From positions 3,720,001-3,784,000 of the forward strand of contig NC_015578.1 in NCBI RefSeq assembly GCF_000214375.1: a DNA stretch of 64,000 bases, written 5' to 3'. The stretch is from Treponema primitia ZAS-2. GTDB taxonomy: Bacteria; Spirochaetota; Spirochaetia; Treponematales; Breznakiellaceae. The position numbers and the translations under genes were made by a program. Below the pieces are notes generated by a model. The model searched no databases. It was not told the origin of the DNA and worked only from the letters and a program-made list of their open reading frames with translations. Positions 3,335 through 54,950 of this stretch are shown in pieces. Numbering within the stretch: position 1 is the stretch's first letter; the number at the start of each line of letters is the position of its first letter.

Positions 3335-4156
3335 TTAAGGTACTATGTTGAATTCCTGAACAACCTGAATGTCTGAACGGACAACGGAAATTCCGGGAAC
3401 CTCTCTGGCGGCGTTAAGCGCATTTTCTATAAGAACCTGCGAACTGGCCACCCCGAAAAGGGTAAGCTCCCCGCCGGAGACCGCCGCTTCCAGGAAGTGG
3501 ATGGCCAGCTCCCTTTCATACAGAATATGATGAATGGCCTGCTGGCCCAGGATCATCTCCTTGAGACGTGCCTCGTTCTGGGCTTCCGTCTCCTGGCTAA
3601 TAATGTGATCCCGAAGGTCCTTGATGATCTTCGCTGCCAGGGCTGGGTGCAGATTCCCCATATTCAAGGTCAGGTGATAATTGGAGCCTTCCCGCCAGTC
3701 AATATCAAAAAAATACCGGTGGAACCCGAAGCGATCATGATCGCTCTGTTCAATGATCTGCCTGGCCCGTTTTTCGTCGCAGTGGAAATAGCTCTTCACC
3801 CGCTCATAGCGTATCTCCGTGGGCGCTACCAGGAATACAGAAAGAACCCCAGGAATATTCTTAAACACTGCAGCGGCCCCCCGGCCGATAAAAACGCAGC
3901 TCCCTTCGGATGCTTCGGCAAGCATAGCCGTTTTCAGAAAGTGGAGATAATCGTCCCGGTCCTGGGATAGGGAAGCAAAAAACGACGGTTTCCGTTCATC
4001 GTATTTTTCAAGCTTGGTTCCCACAATCCCAAAGGATTTGATCCGTTCCTCCAACTTGAGCTTGTCAACAAAACGATAGCCCAGCAGTTTTGCCAATTCA
4101 GTAGCCGTCTCATCACCCAGAGCTGCCAATTGACGGGAAATTGTAATGATTGCCAT
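3335..4156 (-). CDS. Cytidylate-kinase-like P-loop family protein
   Basis: A 273-residue member of the cytidylate-kinase-like family (Pfam type PF13189). The N-terminus MAIITISRQLAALGDETATE matches the start of this family, with a degenerate P-loop region, followed by GYRFVDKLKLEERI and the phosphate-binding region FIGRGAAAVFKN. The nucleoside substrate is not known for this family, and the last ~75 residues form an added domain of mixed alpha/beta character. I chose ATG 4156 rather than the longer frame because AGGAGG (4161-4166 on the complement) sits at ideal spacing. It stands alone, divergent from the NUDIX gene. Confidence 0.75.
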   Translation of the reverse strand: MAIITISRQLAALGDETATELAKLLGYRFVDKLKLEERIKSFGIVGTKLEKYDERKPSFFASLSQDRDDYLHFLKTAMLAEASEGSCVFIGRGAAAVFKNIPGVLSVFLVAPTEIRYERVKSYFHCDEKRARQIIEQSDHDRFGFHRYFFDIDWREGSNYHLTLNMGNLHPALAAKIIKDLRDHIISQETEAQNEARLKEMILGQQAIHHILYERELAIHFLEAAVSGGELTLFGVASSQVLIENALNAAREVPGISVVRSDIQVVQEFNIVP

Positions 4157-4281
4157 GATACCTCCTTGGTCAAAGGGTTCCTGTGACCTACATACCAAGC
4201 ATAAAGCTTTGACAGGAACTTGTCAAAAGATTTAGAAAAGAACTCATTGCACCTCGGGGCTTAAAAGGGTATTTTATAGCC

Positions 4282-4866
4282 ATGGAAAACGACAATGGGC
4301 CAGCGGCCCACCTTATTTGGAAAGAAACAGGACGGCAGGAGGTTTACCGCTGCAAGGTTCTTTCAATCCGGGATACCACCTGCCTTTCCCCGGAGGGCGA
4401 AACCGCCGTATTTTCGGTTATTGATGCCCCGGATTGGGCTATCGTGATACCGGTAATCGAAACCGAGGGGGGTCGGGAATTTGTCATGGTCAGGCAGTGG
4501 CGTCATGGATCACAGGAGCTAAGCCTGGAATTTCCCGGCGGGGGGTTTGAACCCGGGGAAAATGCCCTGGAAGCCGCCGCCCGGGAACTGCAGGAGGAAA
4601 CCGCCTATGCACCAGGAAAAATCCGCAAGATCGGGGAATTCAGCCCGAATCCGGCGCTTATGTCCAACCGGGTCCACTTCTTTTTAGCCGAAGATTTAAA
4701 GCCCCTGGAAAGCCAGGATCTGGATAAGGATGAATTTGTTGACGTAGAACTGGTAAGCGCCGCTGAGGTATTCCAAGGCCTGGGGCGTCCACCCTATATG
4801 CACGCCCTCATGGCCTCGGCTTATACCCTTTACTTACAGGCCACAGGTCACCGGATAGGTTCGTAG
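4282..4866 (+). CDS. NUDIX hydrolase, ADP-ribose pyrophosphatase type
   Basis: A 194-residue NUDIX enzyme, expected to hydrolyse nucleoside diphosphate sugars such as ADP-ribose. The NUDIX box is intact: GGGFEPGENALEAAARELQE followed by ETAY, giving the G-x5-E-x7-RE-x2-EE pattern that binds Mg2+. The upstream VRQWRHG and downstream GEFSPNPALMSNRVHFF are typical of the ADP-ribose subgroup. The gene ends convergently with the LysM gene, overlapping it by 19 bases (4848-4866). Confidence 0.9.
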   Translation: MENDNGPAAHLIWKETGRQEVYRCKVLSIRDTTCLSPEGETAVFSVIDAPDWAIVIPVIETEGGREFVMVRQWRHGSQELSLEFPGGGFEPGENALEAAARELQEETAYAPGKIRKIGEFSPNPALMSNRVHFFLAEDLKPLESQDLDKDEFVDVELVSAAEVFQGLGRPPYMHALMASAYTLYLQATGHRIGS

Positions 4867-17154: not shown

Positions 17155-18627
17155 ATGAAAACGATTTTTATGGACGGGAATTTTCTTCTTTCAACAGAAA
17201 TAAGCAGGAAGCTCTATCATGAGGCTGCGGCGGGGGAGCCGATCTTTGACTATCACTGCCACCTCAACCCTAAGGAGATCGCGGAAAATCGCCGCTTTGC
17301 AAACCTGAGCGAAATTTGGCTGGCCGGAGACCACTATAAATGGCGGGTCATGCGGGCTAACGGCATTGATGAGCGGCTTATCACCGGGGATGCCGACCCC
17401 TACGACAAATTCCTCGCCTGGGCAGAAACAGTTCCCCGGCTTTTAGGGAACCCCCTCTACCATTGGAGTCACCTGGAACTACAGCGTTACTTTGATATTT
17501 ATGAACCATTGAGTAAAGCCAATGCCCCCCAAGTCTGGAATGCGGCTAATGAAAAACTGAAAAATGACGAGGCCCTTTCGGTGTACGGGATTTTCCGCCG
17601 CTTTAAGGTGTATGCCGTGGGAACCACCGACGATCCTGCGGATGGCCTTGAATGGCATGATACAATCAGTGCCGCTGGGAAAACAGAAACAAAGGTATTA
17701 CCATCATTTAGACCGGATCGGGCTTTAAATGTTGAGAAACCGGATTTTCCTGAATATATAAACCACCTTGGAAAAGCTGCGGGGAAGAATATCACTAATA
17801 TTGATGATCTGCTTGCTGTTTTGCGGGATCGGATAAATTTCTTTGATAAACATGGCTGTTGTGCGGCGGATCACGGTCTTGAATATCTGCCCTTTGAGAC
17901 CGCAAGGGACGGAAGTACAGGATCCCAGTGGGAAAAAGAGGCAGGAGCCGTCTTCGCTAAGGCTCTTTCCGGCGGAACTGCGGATAGGCAGGAAGTCGAG
18001 TCCTTCAAGACCTTTGTCCTCTGTTTTCTTGCCGGGGAATACCATGACCACGACTGGGCCATGCAGCTGCACCTCTCCGCCCTGCGGACCATCAATACCC
18101 CTATGCTCAAGATACTTGGACCTGATACAGGTTACGATGTGGTCCACGATCATCCGGTAGCCGCCAAACTTTCCCGGCTCCTGGATACGGTGGAAGAACG
18201 GGGTAAACTCCCAAAGGTCATTCTCTATAGTCTCAATCCCAAGGATTTTTATCCCCTAGCCACGGTGATGGGATCTTTTCAAGGTGACGGCATACCTGGT
18301 AAAATGCAGCTTGGTTCGGCATGGTGGTTTCTGGATCATCGGGATGGCATGGAAAACCAGATGCGGCTTCTGGCCAATACGGGGCTGCTCTCCCGTTTTG
18401 TGGGGATGCTTACCGATTCCCGCAGCTTCCTTTCCTATCCCCGGCACGAATACTTCCGCCGTATACTCTGTAACCTCATAGGCGGCTGGGCTGAAAACGG
18501 CGAAGTCCCGGATGATTTCTTCCTTCTGGGAGACATGGTAAGGGATATCTCTTTCAGAAATGCTTTGCGATACTTTGAAAATAGTAATAATAGTAATAAA
18601 GGAGTTTATTATGGAAAAAATAATTGA
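17155..18627 (+). CDS. uxaC: Glucuronate isomerase
   Basis: A 490-residue uronate isomerase converting D-glucuronate to D-fructuronate (and galacturonate to tagaturonate). It belongs to the amidohydrolase-like group. The metal-binding FDYHCHLNPKEI is near the start, and LAGDHYKWRVMRANGI, RFKVYAVGTTDDPAD, WAMQLHLSALR and the late LTDSRSFLSYPRHEYFRRIL are family landmarks. Its last 17 bases overlap the aldolase gene, so its tail (NNSNKGVYYGKNN) is partly read from the downstream ribosome site. This is the first catabolic step of the cluster. Confidence 0.95.
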   Translation: MKTIFMDGNFLLSTEISRKLYHEAAAGEPIFDYHCHLNPKEIAENRRFANLSEIWLAGDHYKWRVMRANGIDERLITGDADPYDKFLAWAETVPRLLGNPLYHWSHLELQRYFDIYEPLSKANAPQVWNAANEKLKNDEALSVYGIFRRFKVYAVGTTDDPADGLEWHDTISAAGKTETKVLPSFRPDRALNVEKPDFPEYINHLGKAAGKNITNIDDLLAVLRDRINFFDKHGCCAADHGLEYLPFETARDGSTGSQWEKEAGAVFAKALSGGTADRQEVESFKTFVLCFLAGEYHDHDWAMQLHLSALRTINTPMLKILGPDTGYDVVHDHPVAAKLSRLLDTVEERGKLPKVILYSLNPKDFYPLATVMGSFQGDGIPGKMQLGSAWWFLDHRDGMENQMRLLANTGLLSRFVGMLTDSRSFLSYPRHEYFRRILCNLIGGWAENGEVPDDFFLLGDMVRDISFRNALRYFENSNNSNKGVYYGKNN

Positions 18628-19591
18628 AGAATTGGGAAAGATCGGAATAGTTCCGGTAATCAAAATTGACGATGTTGAAAAGTCGGTTCCCCTGGCAAAG
18701 GCCCTAATCGCCGGAGGCATTCCCTGCGCGGAGGTCACCTTCAGGACTGCCGAAGGGGAAGAGGCCATACGCCGCATAAACGCTGAGGTTCCCGATATCC
18801 TGCTTGGGGCGGGTACGGTACTAAGTACCGATCAGGTTGACCGGGCGATTAACGCGGGGGCGAAGTTTATTGTGAGTCCGGGATTCAACCCGAAGGTTGT
18901 GGCCTACTGTATTAAAAAAGGAATCCCCATAGTGCCCGGCTGCTCTAATCCTTCAGATATTGAACAGGCCCTTGAATTTGGCCTTGATGTGATAAAATTT
19001 TTCCCTGCGGAACAGTCCGGGGGGCTTGAGTATATCAAAGCCATTGCCGCTCCCTATACCCAGCTCAGATTCATGCCCACCGGGGGAATAAACCAGAATA
19101 ATATTGCTAAATATACCGGCTATGAGCGGATAGTGGCCTGCGGAGGTTCCTGGATGGTCGGCGCGGACCTTATAAACACCGGGGATTTTGATCGGATAAC
19201 CCAGCTCTGCAAAGAGGCGGTTCAGGCGGTTCTGGGATTTTCAGTTGCCCATTTTGGTATCAACACTAAAAATGCAGAAACGGCGCTTAAAGCAGCAAAT
19301 CTGTTCAGCGCCCTTTTCGGGTTTACCCTTAAAGATGGTAATTCGTCGATCTTTGCCAGTGACAATATAGAGATCATGAAAGAAACCGGCCTGGGCGCCA
19401 ACGGCCATATAGGCATCGGGACTAACAGTTTACTCCGGGCTATTGCCTGGTTTGAACGGCAGGGTATAAAATTTAACCCGGGCAGCGCCAAAAAAGACAA
19501 TAAGGGTAACATAACGGTGATCTATCTGGAAGAAGAAATCGCCGGATTTGCGGTACATTTGGTACAAAGAAAATCAACAACCTCGCCCTAA
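18611..19591 (+). CDS. eda: KDPG/KHG aldolase fused to a C-terminal VOC-like domain
   Basis: A 326-residue protein. Residues 1-205 are a class I 2-keto-3-deoxy-6-phosphogluconate aldolase: Glu41 in CAEVTFRT and the Schiff-base Lys129 in DVIKFFPAEQSGG, with the phosphate loop FMPTGGINQNN. It splits KDPG to pyruvate and glyceraldehyde-3-phosphate. Residues about 212-322 (VAHFGINTKNAETALKAANL to GFAVHLVQRK) resemble a vicinal-oxygen-chelate fold and are absent from the E. coli enzyme. The ATG at 18611 follows GGAG and overlaps uxaC by 17 bases. The role of the extra domain is unknown. Confidence 0.9.
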   Translation: MEKIIEELGKIGIVPVIKIDDVEKSVPLAKALIAGGIPCAEVTFRTAEGEEAIRRINAEVPDILLGAGTVLSTDQVDRAINAGAKFIVSPGFNPKVVAYCIKKGIPIVPGCSNPSDIEQALEFGLDVIKFFPAEQSGGLEYIKAIAAPYTQLRFMPTGGINQNNIAKYTGYERIVACGGSWMVGADLINTGDFDRITQLCKEAVQAVLGFSVAHFGINTKNAETALKAANLFSALFGFTLKDGNSSIFASDNIEIMKETGLGANGHIGIGTNSLLRAIAWFERQGIKFNPGSAKKDNKGNITVIYLEEEIAGFAVHLVQRKSTTSP

Positions 19592-19649
19592 AAGCTCCCC
19601 TGCGAAAGCAGGTTCTTAGGTATGTTGTTCTTATAAGGTATTTGTATTC

Positions 19650-19699
19650 GGGGTTTAATACCCTTTTTACGCGCCCTAAAGGGCGGGGTATTAAACCCC
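19650..19699 (+). promoter_or_regulatory. Long nested hairpin between eda and kdgK
   Basis: GGGGTTTAATACCC (19650-19663) pairs perfectly with 19686-19699, enclosing an inner CGCCC-TAAA-GGGCG hairpin. It lies 38 bases ahead of kdgK. On the minus strand the inner part reads ATACCCCGCCCTTTAGGGCG, close to the hairpin at 53144-53165, so it may be a mobile-element end as well as a transcript processing or attenuation site. Confidence 0.65.
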
Positions 19700-19736
19700 T
19701 CAACACGAATAAAAAATTAATTATCAGGAGATTATC

Positions 19737-20759
19737 ATGGGAAAGATCGTTACTTTTGGTGAAATTATGCTGCGCCTTGCCCCGGAAGGGTATTACCGTT
19801 TTGTCCAGGCATCCAGCTACGGCGCTACCTACGGCGGCGGGGAGGCCAATGTGGCGGTGTCCCTGGCGAACTTTGGCGCCGATGCCGCCTTTGTTACTAA
19901 ACTGCCGAAACACGAAATCGGCCAGGGGGCGGTGAACAGTCTGCGACAGTTCGGTGTGGACACATCGAAGATAGTTCGTGGGGGCAGCCGGGTGGGCATT
20001 TATTTTCTGGAGAAGGGCGCTTCCCAGCGGGCTTCCAAGGTTATCTATGACCGCGCGGGTTCCGCCATTGCAACTGCGGAGCTGAAGGACTTTGACTGGC
20101 CCTCTATCTTTGAAGGGGTTTCCTGGTTTCACTTTACGGGAATTACCCCGGCTCTGGGGGATACGGTGGCGGCTATTACCCTGGAAGCCTGCAAAACCGC
20201 AAAGGCCAGGGGAATTACGGTCTCCTGCGATCTTAATTACCGGAAAAACCTCTGGTCCCGTGAAAAGGCAGGAGAGGTGATGGCAGGCCTCATGCCCTTT
20301 GTGGATCTGTGTATTGCCAATGAGGAGGACGCATCGGATGTGTTTGGTATTCACGCCCGGAACAGCGATATTAACTCCGGCAAGATCAACCGTGAAGGCT
20401 ACCAGGAAGTGGCCAAGGCTCTGACGGAAAGATTCGGATTCAAGAAAGTCGCAATAACCCTGCGGGAATCTTTTTCCGCCAATGATAATAACTGGGCAGC
20501 CATGCTCTACGTTGACGGAACAGCGTATTTCTCAAAAAAATACCCGGTTCATATCGTGGACAGAGTAGGAGGCGGCGACAGTTTTGGCGCCGGGCTTATC
20601 TATGGAACATTACAGGCTTATGCTCCCCAGGAAACGGTAGAATTTGCAGTAGCCGCAAGCTGCCTGAAACATTCCATTGAGGGCGACTTTAACCAGATTT
20701 CGGTGGAAGAAGTAACGAAGCTTGCCGGAGGTGACGCCTCAGGGCGGGTACAGCGCTAA
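19737..20759 (+). CDS. kdgK: 2-keto-3-deoxygluconate kinase (PfkB family)
   Basis: A 340-residue ribokinase-family sugar kinase phosphorylating 2-keto-3-deoxygluconate to KDPG. It has the N-terminal signature YGGGEANVAVSLANFGADAA, a substrate-binding middle part (GSRVGIYFLEKG), and the C-terminal anion hole and catalytic base in VDRVGGGDSFGAGLIYG (Asp of GGGDSFGAG). A good AGGAG precedes the ATG. It supplies the substrate of the aldolase encoded just upstream and closes the hexuronate route. Confidence 0.93.
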   Translation: MGKIVTFGEIMLRLAPEGYYRFVQASSYGATYGGGEANVAVSLANFGADAAFVTKLPKHEIGQGAVNSLRQFGVDTSKIVRGGSRVGIYFLEKGASQRASKVIYDRAGSAIATAELKDFDWPSIFEGVSWFHFTGITPALGDTVAAITLEACKTAKARGITVSCDLNYRKNLWSREKAGEVMAGLMPFVDLCIANEEDASDVFGIHARNSDINSGKINREGYQEVAKALTERFGFKKVAITLRESFSANDNNWAAMLYVDGTAYFSKKYPVHIVDRVGGGDSFGAGLIYGTLQAYAPQETVEFAVAASCLKHSIEGDFNQISVEEVTKLAGGDASGRVQR

Positions 20760-29738: not shown

Positions 29739-31391
29739 TTAGGGCTCCGGAGCAGCCTGGGTCTGCCAGGACAGCGCCGGGTAGTCGTAGCCGGGTATCC
29801 ACTTCCAATCAAGGCCGAAGCCGATCCCCCAGTTAAGCAAGGCCGTGTAGGCGCTTTCATTCGCCGCCCCGGTAAAATCGCTGCGGGATCGCGTGGTATT
29901 GCCATTCAAGATCATCGACTCAAGGTGTAGTTCTGAAACAGTATAATTGTTGACATAAAGGCCCGGTGTATCTTCTCTTCCGACAATTCCGTGGGTGCTG
30001 CCCGGGGTGCTGAGGGAGGAAACGCGGGTATTAAAGGCCGCACACCCTTCGACGACCCCATTAGAAGAAGTTCCTGCAATGCCCCCTGCAGCGGAACTAA
30101 GCCCTTCGGCGACAACGTCTCCCAGGGCGTAACAGTAGCGTATTTCGTCACCATATCCCGCGATGCCTCCTGCATACCCTCCTTGGCCTGGCCCCTTGAC
30201 ATTTACCTTTACCCAGGCATAGCAGCTATCTATGATGCTGCCGGATCCTGCGATTCCCCCCGCAATGGCAGACCCGCCGGAGATGACTTCCATGGTTCCC
30301 GAGACATAGCAGAGCGTAATACTTCCTGTGCCGGATGTTCCTGCCACGCCGCCTACAGTAGCACTATTGCTGGCGCCCGTGATTGTTCCCTTAATAACCC
30401 CGGTAAAGGAACTTTGTTTTATGGCGCCCATATTTTCCCCCGCAATGCCACCCAGGTATATTGAACCCGGGCCGGTATTGGAAAAATGGATATTCCCCAA
30501 AACCGTAATCCCCTCAATAATGGTACTATCTGCGGACCCTACAAGGCCGCCTAAATATTGGATGTCGTCGGAAATAATGGGTATTGATGAGGGCCCCAGA
30601 TTACAGATCAGAGCCAGGTTTTTAATATGCCCCCCGTTGGTACGGCCAAAGAGGCCCAGGTATTGGGTCGGGGTATTTACAAAGCCATTAATAGTAATAG
30701 TGTGCCCCCTACCGTCAAATGAGGCTTTAAAGATACTGTCCTCTGCGCCTATGGGCGTCCAGGGCTGAGTCAGGGCTATATCGTTTTCCAGGATGAATTC
30801 TACTGCGCTGTCAGTTATGTACGGAATCCCCCAGGGCTCCGCAAGTCGCCGCAGTTCCGCCTCATTGTGGATATAGATACTCCCGGAGGCCGCATAGGCC
30901 ACCTCGTAATCCGGATCCATCTGCATAGGAATTTTAGCGGCAAGTTCCTCCCCCGCCGTAACGACTATTTCTACGGTCCCGGAGCCCGCCAATACATTCG
31001 CCGTATCATAGGCCAAAACTTCAATGATCCATTTCCCCGGTTCCAGTGCGAGCATGAGGGTTTGATTTTCTTCCGCCACCAGGACTATGGTATTTTCAGC
31101 GCCTGTAAGGGTAATCCGGTACATAAGACTGCTGAGATTATCCTTGGATACAAGCGAGCGGGAAGAGCTGCCTGACTTGTCCGGCGCCGGGGAAGCCCTG
31201 CCCGGCATCTGCAGACTCAGGGTACCCTTGCCATAATCTGCTTCCGGGGGCAGGTCACAGGAAAGTACACTTAAAGCAAAAACGCATAATGCAGCCCCTT
31301 GAATCAACATACTCCACCGCAGAGCGACGGAGTATGTTGTTCTGTTGCGAATCAATCGAAATCCTACAACTACACTCAATAGCTTTTTCAT
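29739..31391 (-). CDS. Lipoprotein with GLUG-type repeats
   Basis: A 550-residue surface lipoprotein (lipobox SVLSC near residue 45). After an N-terminal domain with a beta-sandwich look (RITLTGAENTIVLVAEENQT), about half of the protein is a repeated motif of the GLUG type: GGLVGSADSTIIEG, GGIAGENMGAIKQS, GGVAGTSGTGSITLCYVSG, GGIAGSGSIIDSCYA and GGIAGTSSNGVVEGCAA. Such repeats form a right-handed beta-helix in surface proteins. The N-terminal extension before the hydrophobic signal contains an inverted repeat, so a start downstream at MLIQGAALCVFALS (residue 28) is possible. It heads the envelope operon. Confidence 0.8.
   Translation of the reverse strand: MKKLLSVVVGFRLIRNRTTYSVALRWSMLIQGAALCVFALSVLSCDLPPEADYGKGTLSLQMPGRASPAPDKSGSSSRSLVSKDNLSSLMYRITLTGAENTIVLVAEENQTLMLALEPGKWIIEVLAYDTANVLAGSGTVEIVVTAGEELAAKIPMQMDPDYEVAYAASGSIYIHNEAELRRLAEPWGIPYITDSAVEFILENDIALTQPWTPIGAEDSIFKASFDGRGHTITINGFVNTPTQYLGLFGRTNGGHIKNLALICNLGPSSIPIISDDIQYLGGLVGSADSTIIEGITVLGNIHFSNTGPGSIYLGGIAGENMGAIKQSSFTGVIKGTITGASNSATVGGVAGTSGTGSITLCYVSGTMEVISGGSAIAGGIAGSGSIIDSCYAWVKVNVKGPGQGGYAGGIAGYGDEIRYCYALGDVVAEGLSSAAGGIAGTSSNGVVEGCAAFNTRVSSLSTPGSTHGIVGREDTPGLYVNNYTVSELHLESMILNGNTTRSRSDFTGAANESAYTALLNWGIGFGLDWKWIPGYDYPALSWQTQAAPEP
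31305..31339. repeat. Long inverted repeat at the start of the GLUG lipoprotein gene
   Basis: CAACATACTCC (31305-31315) and GGAGTATGTTG (31329-31339) are exact complements. The pairing extends through CGC-AGA-GCG after one two-base mismatch. It lies within or just ahead of the signal-peptide coding region, depending on which start is used. Confidence 0.7.
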
Positions 31392-47010: not shown

Positions 47011-47092
47011 GGGCATGCCTGGCGCTATGGGCTTGCGCCCGGTGTATCAGATACATGCCGCCTTTGCCGAGGGTTGATTACCACCGCCCACC

Positions 47093-47245
47093 CTAAAGAC
47101 TGGGTAAGCCTTCGGTTTGTGTGGTGGCGATTGTCTTGAAACCATTGTAAAACATCGTTTTATACAGCTCGTCCACAATAAAAGCATTCCCCCGATACAC
47201 CCGTGAAAAAAGCGCGCTGTACCGGTTCAGGTACTTTGTGCCGAA
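47093..47245 (-). pseudogene. Possible transposase C-terminal remnant
   Basis: A 50-codon frame bounded by a stop at 47246 encodes KYLNRYSALFSRVYRGNAFI then VDELYKTMFYNG, which resembles the C-terminal end of IS1595-type transposases. Its stop TAG lies in CTTTAGGGTGGG, part of a hairpin-like end. The family call is tentative. No upstream catalytic part remains, and an AT-rich gene adjoins it. Confidence 0.35.
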
Positions 47246-53052: not shown

Positions 53053-53095
53053 GTGCTTATTGTTAAAAAACCGTTTTTATACTATTTTATTCGAA

Positions 53096-53114
53096 GCCGG
53101 GTCAAAGACCCGGC
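53096..53114 (+). terminator. GC-rich hairpin after the unknown helical gene
   Basis: GCCGGGTC, loop AAA, GACCCGGC: a perfect 8-bp stem 43 bases after the stop. No T-run follows, so it may be a processing or pausing structure, not a full terminator. Confidence 0.45.
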
Positions 53115-53145
53115 AGTACAATAAATTTCTTATCGAACGACGATA

Positions 53146-53165
53146 CCCCACCCTTTAGGGTGGGG
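53146..53165 (+). repeat. CTTTAGGG hairpin ahead of glnS
   Basis: CCCCACCCTTTAGGGTGGGG is an 8-bp inverted repeat with loop TTTA, preceded by ATA. A closely similar sequence lies on the minus strand at 19672-19690, and a related one at the end of the remnant near 47.09 kb. The form resembles the right-end hairpins of IS200/IS605 elements. A further imperfect hairpin (CTCACGGAC with GTCCGTCGTGAG) follows before glnS. Confidence 0.55.
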
Positions 53166-53231
53166 AGAGTCATTCTCACGGACTGGTGAGCCGGATTACG
53201 AGCCCTGTCCGTCGTGAGGGAGAATTTTAAT

Positions 53232-54950
53232 ATGCCAGAGAATGTGCCGGAAACCGCATCGGACTTTATCAGCGAATTCATCAAAGAGGACCTCAAAAAC
53301 GGCCGGTTCGGCTATGTCCATACCCGGTTTCCGCCTGAGCCTAACGGCTGGCTCCATATCGGCCACTGCAAGGCCTTCTATATCGACTTTTCTATGGCGG
53401 AACGCTTCAAGGGCAAGTGTAATCTCCGCTTTGACGATACCAACCCGGAAAAAGAGGATATCTCCTACGTGGAGGCTATCAAACGGGATGTCAAATGGAT
53501 GGGTTATGACTGGGAGGATCGGGAATTTTACGCTTCCGACTATTATGAATACCTTTACGACCTGGCGGTGAAGATCATTAAAAAGGGTCATGCCTATGTG
53601 GATGACCTTACGGACGAAGAAATGAGCGAATACCGGGGAACGGCGGTGGAGGATAAAAACAACATCACCAATACTCCCCCGGGGCGGAATAGCCCGTACC
53701 GGGACCGGTCGGTCGAAGAAAACCTGGACCTCCTGGCCCGAATGCGGGCGGGAGAATTTCCCGATGGAGCGCGGACCCTGCGGGCCAAGATCGACATGGC
53801 CCACCCCAACCTGCTCCTGCGGGACCCGGTGATGTACCGGATCCGGCGGGAAACCCATTACCGTACCGGCAATAACTGGTGCATCTATCCTATGTACGAT
53901 TTCCAGCACCCCCTTTCGGACGCTAAGGAGGGGATTACCCACTCGCTCTGCTCATTGGAGTATGAGATACACCGGCCTTTGTACGAATGGTTCATTAACG
54001 AAGCGGAGGTGTTCCCCAGCCGACAGATCGAATTTGCCCGGCTTAACATCACCCATACGGTGCTTTCCAAGCGCTGGCTGCTCAAGCTGGTCCAGGACAA
54101 CTATGTCTCGGGCTGGGACGATCCCCGGATGCCCACCATCGCAGGTCTACGGCGCCGGGGCTATACGCCAGAGGCTATACGGAGTTTCATTTCCCAAATC
54201 GGGATTGCCAAAACCGACAGCATGGTGGATATCGCCTTCCTCGAATACTGTCTCCGGGAGGACCTGAATAAGCGATCCCCCCGGATCATGGCGGTGCTCA
54301 AGCCCTTAAAGCTCATCATCGAAAATTGGGAAAATGGTAAGGCCGAGGAACTGGAAGCGGTGAACAACCCTGAGGACCCGGCGGCGGGGTCCCGGAAGAT
54401 ACGCTTTACCCGGGAACTCTGGATTGAGCAGGACGACTTTGAGGAGACGCCGCCGCCTAAATACTTCAGGCTTTTCCCGGGGAATTCGGTGCGCCTGCGC
54501 TACGGGTACATTGTTACCTGCACGGGCTTTGACAAGGATGCTGCGGGTACTATTACTGCGGTGCGCTGTACCTATGATCCGGAAACCAAGGGGGGCAATG
54601 CCCCGGACAACCGCAAGGTAAAGGGCACCATCCACTGGCTTTCCGCAGAAGACGCTGTCCCCATGGAGGTGCGTATCTACAACCACCTGTTTGGGGTGGA
54701 GCGGCCCATGGATGTGGCGCCGGGGAAAACCTTCCTGGACAACCTCAGCAAGGATTCCCTGGAACTTATTTCAACTGCCTACGGCGAACCGGGCCTGGCC
54801 AAGGCGGCGCCGGGGGACCGGTTTCAGTTTGAACGGCTTGGGTATTTTGTACGGGATCCCGATTCCTCTGCCCGGGGTACGCCGGTCTTTAATAAAACTG
54901 TGGGGCTCCGGGACACCTGGGCAAAAATCGGACAGAAAACTGTCAAATAG
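53232..54950 (+). CDS. glnS: Glutaminyl-tRNA synthetase
   Basis: A 572-residue class I synthetase charging tRNA-Gln. The HIGH motif is [15 protein letters not shown], the KMSKS equivalent is VLSKRWLL, and [20 protein letters not shown] and [17 protein letters not shown] are family signatures. The C-terminal beta-barrel anticodon-binding domain is complete ([20 protein letters not shown]). I start at ATG 53232, which has GAGGGAG at suitable spacing. Presence of GlnRS means tRNA-Gln need not be charged by the indirect amidotransferase route. Confidence 0.96.

Follow-up and report, generated by a model that had tools for sequence, protein, structure and literature searches.

A hairpin immediately ahead of glnS in Treponema primitia ZAS-2 recurs on the opposite strand of the same window (the whole 64,000-nucleotide stretch of chromosome analyzed here), raising the question of what such a repeat is and how it came to occupy both places. 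The first-pass annotation took the hairpin for a possible end of an IS200/IS605 insertion sequence, left behind in solo copies. Its recurrence holds: ATACCCCRCCCTTTAGGG is found exactly at 53143-53160 on the plus strand and at 19674-19691 on the minus strand, and a search admitting up to 3 mismatches returns 2 matches in the window versus 0.24 expected from shuffled sequence. The recurring hairpin is nonetheless only part of a larger repeat, which consists of two hairpins and no gene. Neither site is a solo end; each is half of a two-hairpin element, and the window holds a further copy, at 31305, that had gone unnoticed. We favor the view, as the better supported one, that the two hairpins are the ends of a gene-less family of treponeme elements that is mobilized in trans, probably as single-stranded DNA. 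Coordinates are collected in the table, where R1 denotes a covariance model built from 14 copies and R2 a left-end model; a right-end model, R3, was used alongside them.

Element copies in the window, their component hairpins and the adjoining genes
Feature	Position	Strand	Basis
KDPG/KHG-aldolase-type gene, 3′ end altered by the 19575 insertion	18560-19591	+	NCBIfam; C-terminus compared with orthologs
Full member, 136 bp, extra hairpin in left tip	19575-19710	+	R1, 125.4 bits, E 1.6e-25
Right-hairpin tip of the 19575 copy (minus-strand match of the first-pass annotation)	19668-19693	+	Sequence
KDG-kinase-type gene, following the 19575 copy	19737-20759	+	NCBIfam
Member with internal deletion, 48 bp in all, its left hairpin abutting the TTGCGAAT end	31305-31352	+	R2, 38.4 bits, E 1.2e-7
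Divergent member upstream of glnS, 83 bp, GAC...CGAAT	53089-53171	-	L072 alignment; ends; fold
Right-end hairpin of the glnS copy, GCCGGGTC TTT GACCCGGC	53096-53114	-	Sequence; fold
Left-end hairpin of the glnS copy (hairpin of the first-pass annotation)	53142-53166	-	Sequence; folds
glnS (glutamine-tRNA ligase)	53232-54950	+	Pfam, NCBIfam

Most members of the family are about 85-160 bp long, and the repeat as aligned in the host genome (G000) spans about 120 bp. The typical layout is 5′-CAAC-(left hairpin)-TTCTnnnAAGG-linker-(right hairpin)-NNN-CGAAT-3′; the G000 copies, lined up together with their flanks, read AAT^CAACAACC-hairpin-GGTATGTTGTTCT-nnTAAGG-linker-hairpin-NNN-CGAAT^MAA, where M is A or C and the carets mark the junctions. 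Terminal inverted repeats are absent, and each end of the element carries one hairpin. The two hairpins are unlike each other except at the tip, which in many copies ends in GGGGTAT or GAGGTAT on both sides. Both ends are folded, and the fold is conserved across differing sequences. At the foot of the right hairpin, six different triplets stand opposite their complements in 105 of the 120 parsed copies, which are related to one another, while on the left 2 of 150 copies have CACC/GGTG in place of the CAAC/GTTG stem, the search expression having admitted these letters only. Formal covariation support among the first 14 copies, all closely related, is modest: RNAalifold reports a double change in 5 of 34 pairs and a covariation term of +1.72. 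Rfam returned no match in the window at gathering score, and none on five loci with the threshold relaxed to E 1. In some lineages (L057, L058, L079 and L080; G029 and G006) the element closes with ACAAT rather than CGAAT, the junction AAT being kept on the right. An additional hairpin, about 20 bp long and of the type GCTCCCC...GGTTCTTRGG, occupies the left tip in L007 and L016 and the right tip in L015, L031, L101 and L102, as if tips had been swapped among ends or copies.

The copy at 19575 lies in an aldolase/kinase operon, between AAT on the left and AAA on the right, and folds as DNA with a z-score of -4.40. Aldolase orthologs were found in 21 of 32 genomes, and seven of those loci were compared. 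In two of them (G005 and G007, flanks compared by eye) the aldolase ends ...VQKK*, the kinase starts within about 20 bases, and there is no element; in a third (G013) the aldolase likewise directly adjoins the kinase, and in a fourth (G019) the spacer between the genes is longer, with the element absent. Two loci have other neighbors, and one is out of register. Were CAAC...CGAAT removed from the T. primitia locus, its aldolase would terminate in VQRK*, just where its orthologs do. The inserted piece is thus 136 bp, and it left no duplication behind.

The copy ahead of glnS is more divergent, and R1 alone scores it weakly (E 0.16), so that its membership rests on its ends and on an alignment to L072, an element copy in a genome of the same genus. 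The left part of the copy aligns with L072 over 58 columns with a score of 50, the best in the window, a value reached by none of 3000 first-order shuffles; the runners-up are 30, at the 31305 copy, and 28, at the next other site. On the minus strand, AAT (53174-53172) precedes the copy and AAA (53088-53086) follows it, and its DNA fold has a z-score of -6.99. Considered as RNA, the glnS leader (53130-53235) folds with a z-score of -2.87 against shuffles; a second hairpin in this leader, just ahead of the start codon, lies outside the element. The deleted copy at 31305 is flanked by AAT and CAA, bringing the window total to three copies, each between AAT and MAA. A plus-strand hairpin at about 1970-2010, whose stem is followed by GGGGTATC, is similar to the L052 left end (score 35; R1 only E 2.8) and is possibly a decayed copy. 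The first-pass annotation had also pointed to a third occurrence of the hairpin, at about 47085-47100, whose stop codon it assigned to a transposase-like remnant. That site is a loose match only and is not a family member: the surrounding sequence folds no better than shuffles do (z 0.04), and R1, R2 and R3 all fail to match it at E up to 10. Pfam lends no support to the supposed remnant at 47095 either, the 50-residue frame that precedes the stop matching none of its families at E up to 1.

Beyond the window, the element recurs at dozens of places in this genome and in related treponemes. The host genome was searched whole, as one contig of 4,059,867 bases. There a search for CCCCRCCCTTTAGGG that tolerates 1 mismatch returns 17 matches versus 2 for the reversed control pattern, and most of the 17 lie in sequence that aligns as the repeat of about 120 bp; R1 at E up to 1 returns 52, shadows on the opposite strand counted; and R2 and R3 matches, merged by hand, define 37 loci, the glnS copy excluded. 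Among 57 genomes near G000, 24 contain R1 matches at E up to 0.01, and among 392 sampled genomes of the phylum 38 do at E up to 0.001 (G000 counted in both), 36 of the 38 belonging to the same order. Among the 80 loci listed by a pattern scan of named genomes, 78 are labeled as Treponema or other spirochaetes. R2 recognizes 75 of the 80 at E up to 0.01, including one weak match outside the spirochaetes. One 116-base copy searched against plasmids and phages gave no match, and neither did one exact 22-base pattern against viral contigs.

The element is mobile, its copies being dispersed and some of them letter-identical. In G032, one 114-bp element (CAAC...CGAAT) occurs unchanged at nine loci whose flanks are unrelated. 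The target was characterized from 147 distinct insertions, drawn from 174 left-end matches, 95 of them with a parsed right end. Positions -3 to -1 of the left flank are A, A and T in 90, 99 and 99% of the 147 insertions, with the full AAT in 131, and the three bases following CGAAT are A or C (71 and 23%), A (95%) and A (87%) in the 95. Positions farther from the junctions are close to background composition. The inserted piece sits between AAT and MAA without target duplication. The MAA seen on the left is the element's own CAA, while that on the right varies with the target; it follows that insertion occurs into AAT^MAA, with no duplication of the six-base target. The joint between one element end and another, CGAAT^CAAC, itself includes the AAT^MAA hexamer, and some head-to-tail copies have one AAT in common (e.g., L014).

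Orientation with respect to replication was analyzed in the three genomes G000, G032 and G035, each of which has dnaA no more than about 1.7 kb from base 1, the terminus being taken as half the genome. With neighboring copies counted separately and the glnS copy, itself oriented with the fork, excluded, 54 of 74 copies point against the fork (two-sided p 1e-4). The individual values are 27/37 in G000 (p 0.008), 20/25 in G032 (p 0.004) and 7/12 in G035 (p 0.77). With genes called by a home-made gene caller, 37 of the 39 copies of G000 and G032 lie outside predicted genes. Their orientation relative to genes is mixed, the convergent arrangement being the most frequent (11/39).

What moves the element? 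A check proposed with the original suggestion, that the hairpin be sought beside tnpA or tnpB genes, came out negative: TnpB (PF07282), an accessory protein of the IS605 group, has no match in G000, and none of the three Y1 loci of this genome bears an element end. All three Y1 genes score above the RAYT and below the IS200 NCBIfam cut-off. What survives of the IS200/IS605 proposal is therefore a mobile element with hairpin ends; assignment to that family does not, since G000 has no TnpB match and its only Y1 genes are RAYTs that lie away from any element end. Extending the search to 13 Y1 loci (the three of G000 and 10 of four relatives) yielded no convincing element end, the best R2 match having E 0.026. 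Two of the G000 RAYTs (L021, ~3456600; L022, ~2112100) sit among GGTGCCTGGCACC and GGTGACTGTCACC palindromes that are apparently REP families of these RAYTs themselves, and near-identical downstream DNA follows the palindromes. A Y1_Tnp match is absent from 11 of the 15 element-bearing relatives, including the complete genomes G031, G032, G035 and G038, some of the others being incomplete. Since G032 is among them, its nine identical copies imply recent movement without Y1. The IS110 domain PF02371 does not track the element either, occurring in 6 of 12 element-rich versus 4 of 10 element-free genomes; it is absent from the element-rich G035, G212, G159, G046, G272 and G029. An element-free treponeme (contig G204:C1) yields 19 matches to IS110-type transposases, with many grouped at 0.71-0.99 Mb. 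No gene was found between element ends, either in the left- and right-end lists of four genomes or among the 80 named loci listed; odd loci are deletions, decayed halves or contig ends, and L238 runs into N. A comparison of 1203 open frames likewise produced no recurring neighbor plausible as a mobilizer. With no gene between the ends and no enzyme that tracks the element, the gene for the mover probably lies apart from it. The searches leave room for a Y1 enzyme that may lie beyond the reach of Pfam or may have been lost after the last burst.

As a working model, we liken the movement of the element to the single-strand hairpin transposition of IS200/IS605. Exposed as single-stranded DNA at the replication fork, one strand of the element would fold into its two hairpins; an enzyme acting in trans would hold both, cut each end at AAT^MAA, and join the freed element into another AAT^MAA. 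The presence of the target hexamer within the CGAAT^CAAC joint would then account both for the constraint on the two sides of the target and for the tandem copies. Membership of IS200/IS605 is not claimed, because the enzyme that defines this family was sought and not found. A more specific reading, which we advance tentatively, is that these are an undescribed class of hairpin elements of the Treponematales, amplified anew in separate lineages and moved by a chromosomal recombinase acting in trans, distinct from the known Y1, RAYT and IS110 enzymes, which would join AAT^MAA while holding two unlike hairpins of single-stranded DNA.

The closest rival to this reading is that the copies are PATEs, non-autonomous ends of an IS200/IS605 element whose Y1 TnpA resides on a parent that is lost, unsampled or highly divergent. 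PMC7290912 describes IS200/IS605 elements and PATEs as having hairpins at their ends and no inverted repeats, and as inserting on the 3′ side of a short sequence with no target duplication. The element shares all of this with PATEs, being likewise short, made of ends only with one hairpin per end, and probably mobilized in trans, and an orientation bias linked to replication would be expected of such a system. It differs in that no parent or TnpA was found, in hairpins that are dissimilar save for the tip, and in a target constrained alike on its AAT and MAA sides. No guide sequence of the IS200/IS605 type was recognized by eye in the alignments; an ATTC/GAAT pairing fits some subfamilies and not others. 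The missing Y1_Tnp match in most element-bearing relatives, complete genomes among them, and the recent movement in G032, which has no Y1_Tnp match, weigh further against PATEs, which we regard as unlikely, if well short of negligible. Recombinases of the IS110 or integron type working on folded strands would suit, in outline, the AT conserved at both junctions and the two-hairpin strand. PF02371, however, is scattered over element-rich and element-free genomes alike, and integrons, whose attC sites are also folded hairpin recombination sites known in treponemes, were gained, according to PMC3607928, after two termite-gut Treponema species had split off, whereas termite-gut-type genomes carry the element. 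Unlike attC sites, moreover, the copies are dispersed, bear two hairpins and form no cassette array. We consider this origin very improbable.

Movement of a REP- or REPIN-like element by RAYTs seems more doubtful still. Three RAYT genes do reside in the host genome, and the resemblance to REP/REPIN systems (background from PMC3733652) extends to high-copy intergenic hairpins, small and dispersed, amplified in a lineage-specific manner, with the transposase gene unlinked. The present element, by contrast, is longer, has two unlike hairpins and defined AAT^MAA junctions, and shows no GTAG/CGTC tag; many of its carriers, the 11 relatives without a Y1 match among them, lack RAYTs; and it flanks none of the RAYTs examined, two of which have palindromes of their own. 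The proposal to which we give least weight of all is a fixed cis-regulatory RNA, a leader or riboswitch, that does not move. It would be in keeping with the strong folds and with the position of some copies just ahead of genes, such as glnS and the kinase, and is contradicted by identical copies with unrelated flanks, by uninterrupted orthologous sites, by the mixed orientation to genes, with convergent sites the commonest, and by the lack of an Rfam match. Single copies may nevertheless have gained a local role secondarily.

Bacterial MITEs provide one more point of comparison. They too are short, dispersed and non-autonomous; the element here differs in having neither terminal inverted repeats nor target duplication, and in keeping its hairpins while its sequence drifts. 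No earlier description of the element was found in the open-licence literature, although one could exist elsewhere. If the mobile-element reading is true, treponemes have a REP-like mobile family of their own with a missing enzyme. The search for that enzyme can now draw on known ends, a target hexamer and an uninterrupted site, and on listings of which genomes are rich in the element and which are free of it. Where copies lie beside or inside operons, as they do at glnS and in the aldolase/kinase pair, they may affect where transcripts end and what the genes produce. At locus L100 of G032, a copy at 4110-4244 lies within a 236-residue open frame on the minus strand (3882-4592), which continues across the element with no stop codon.
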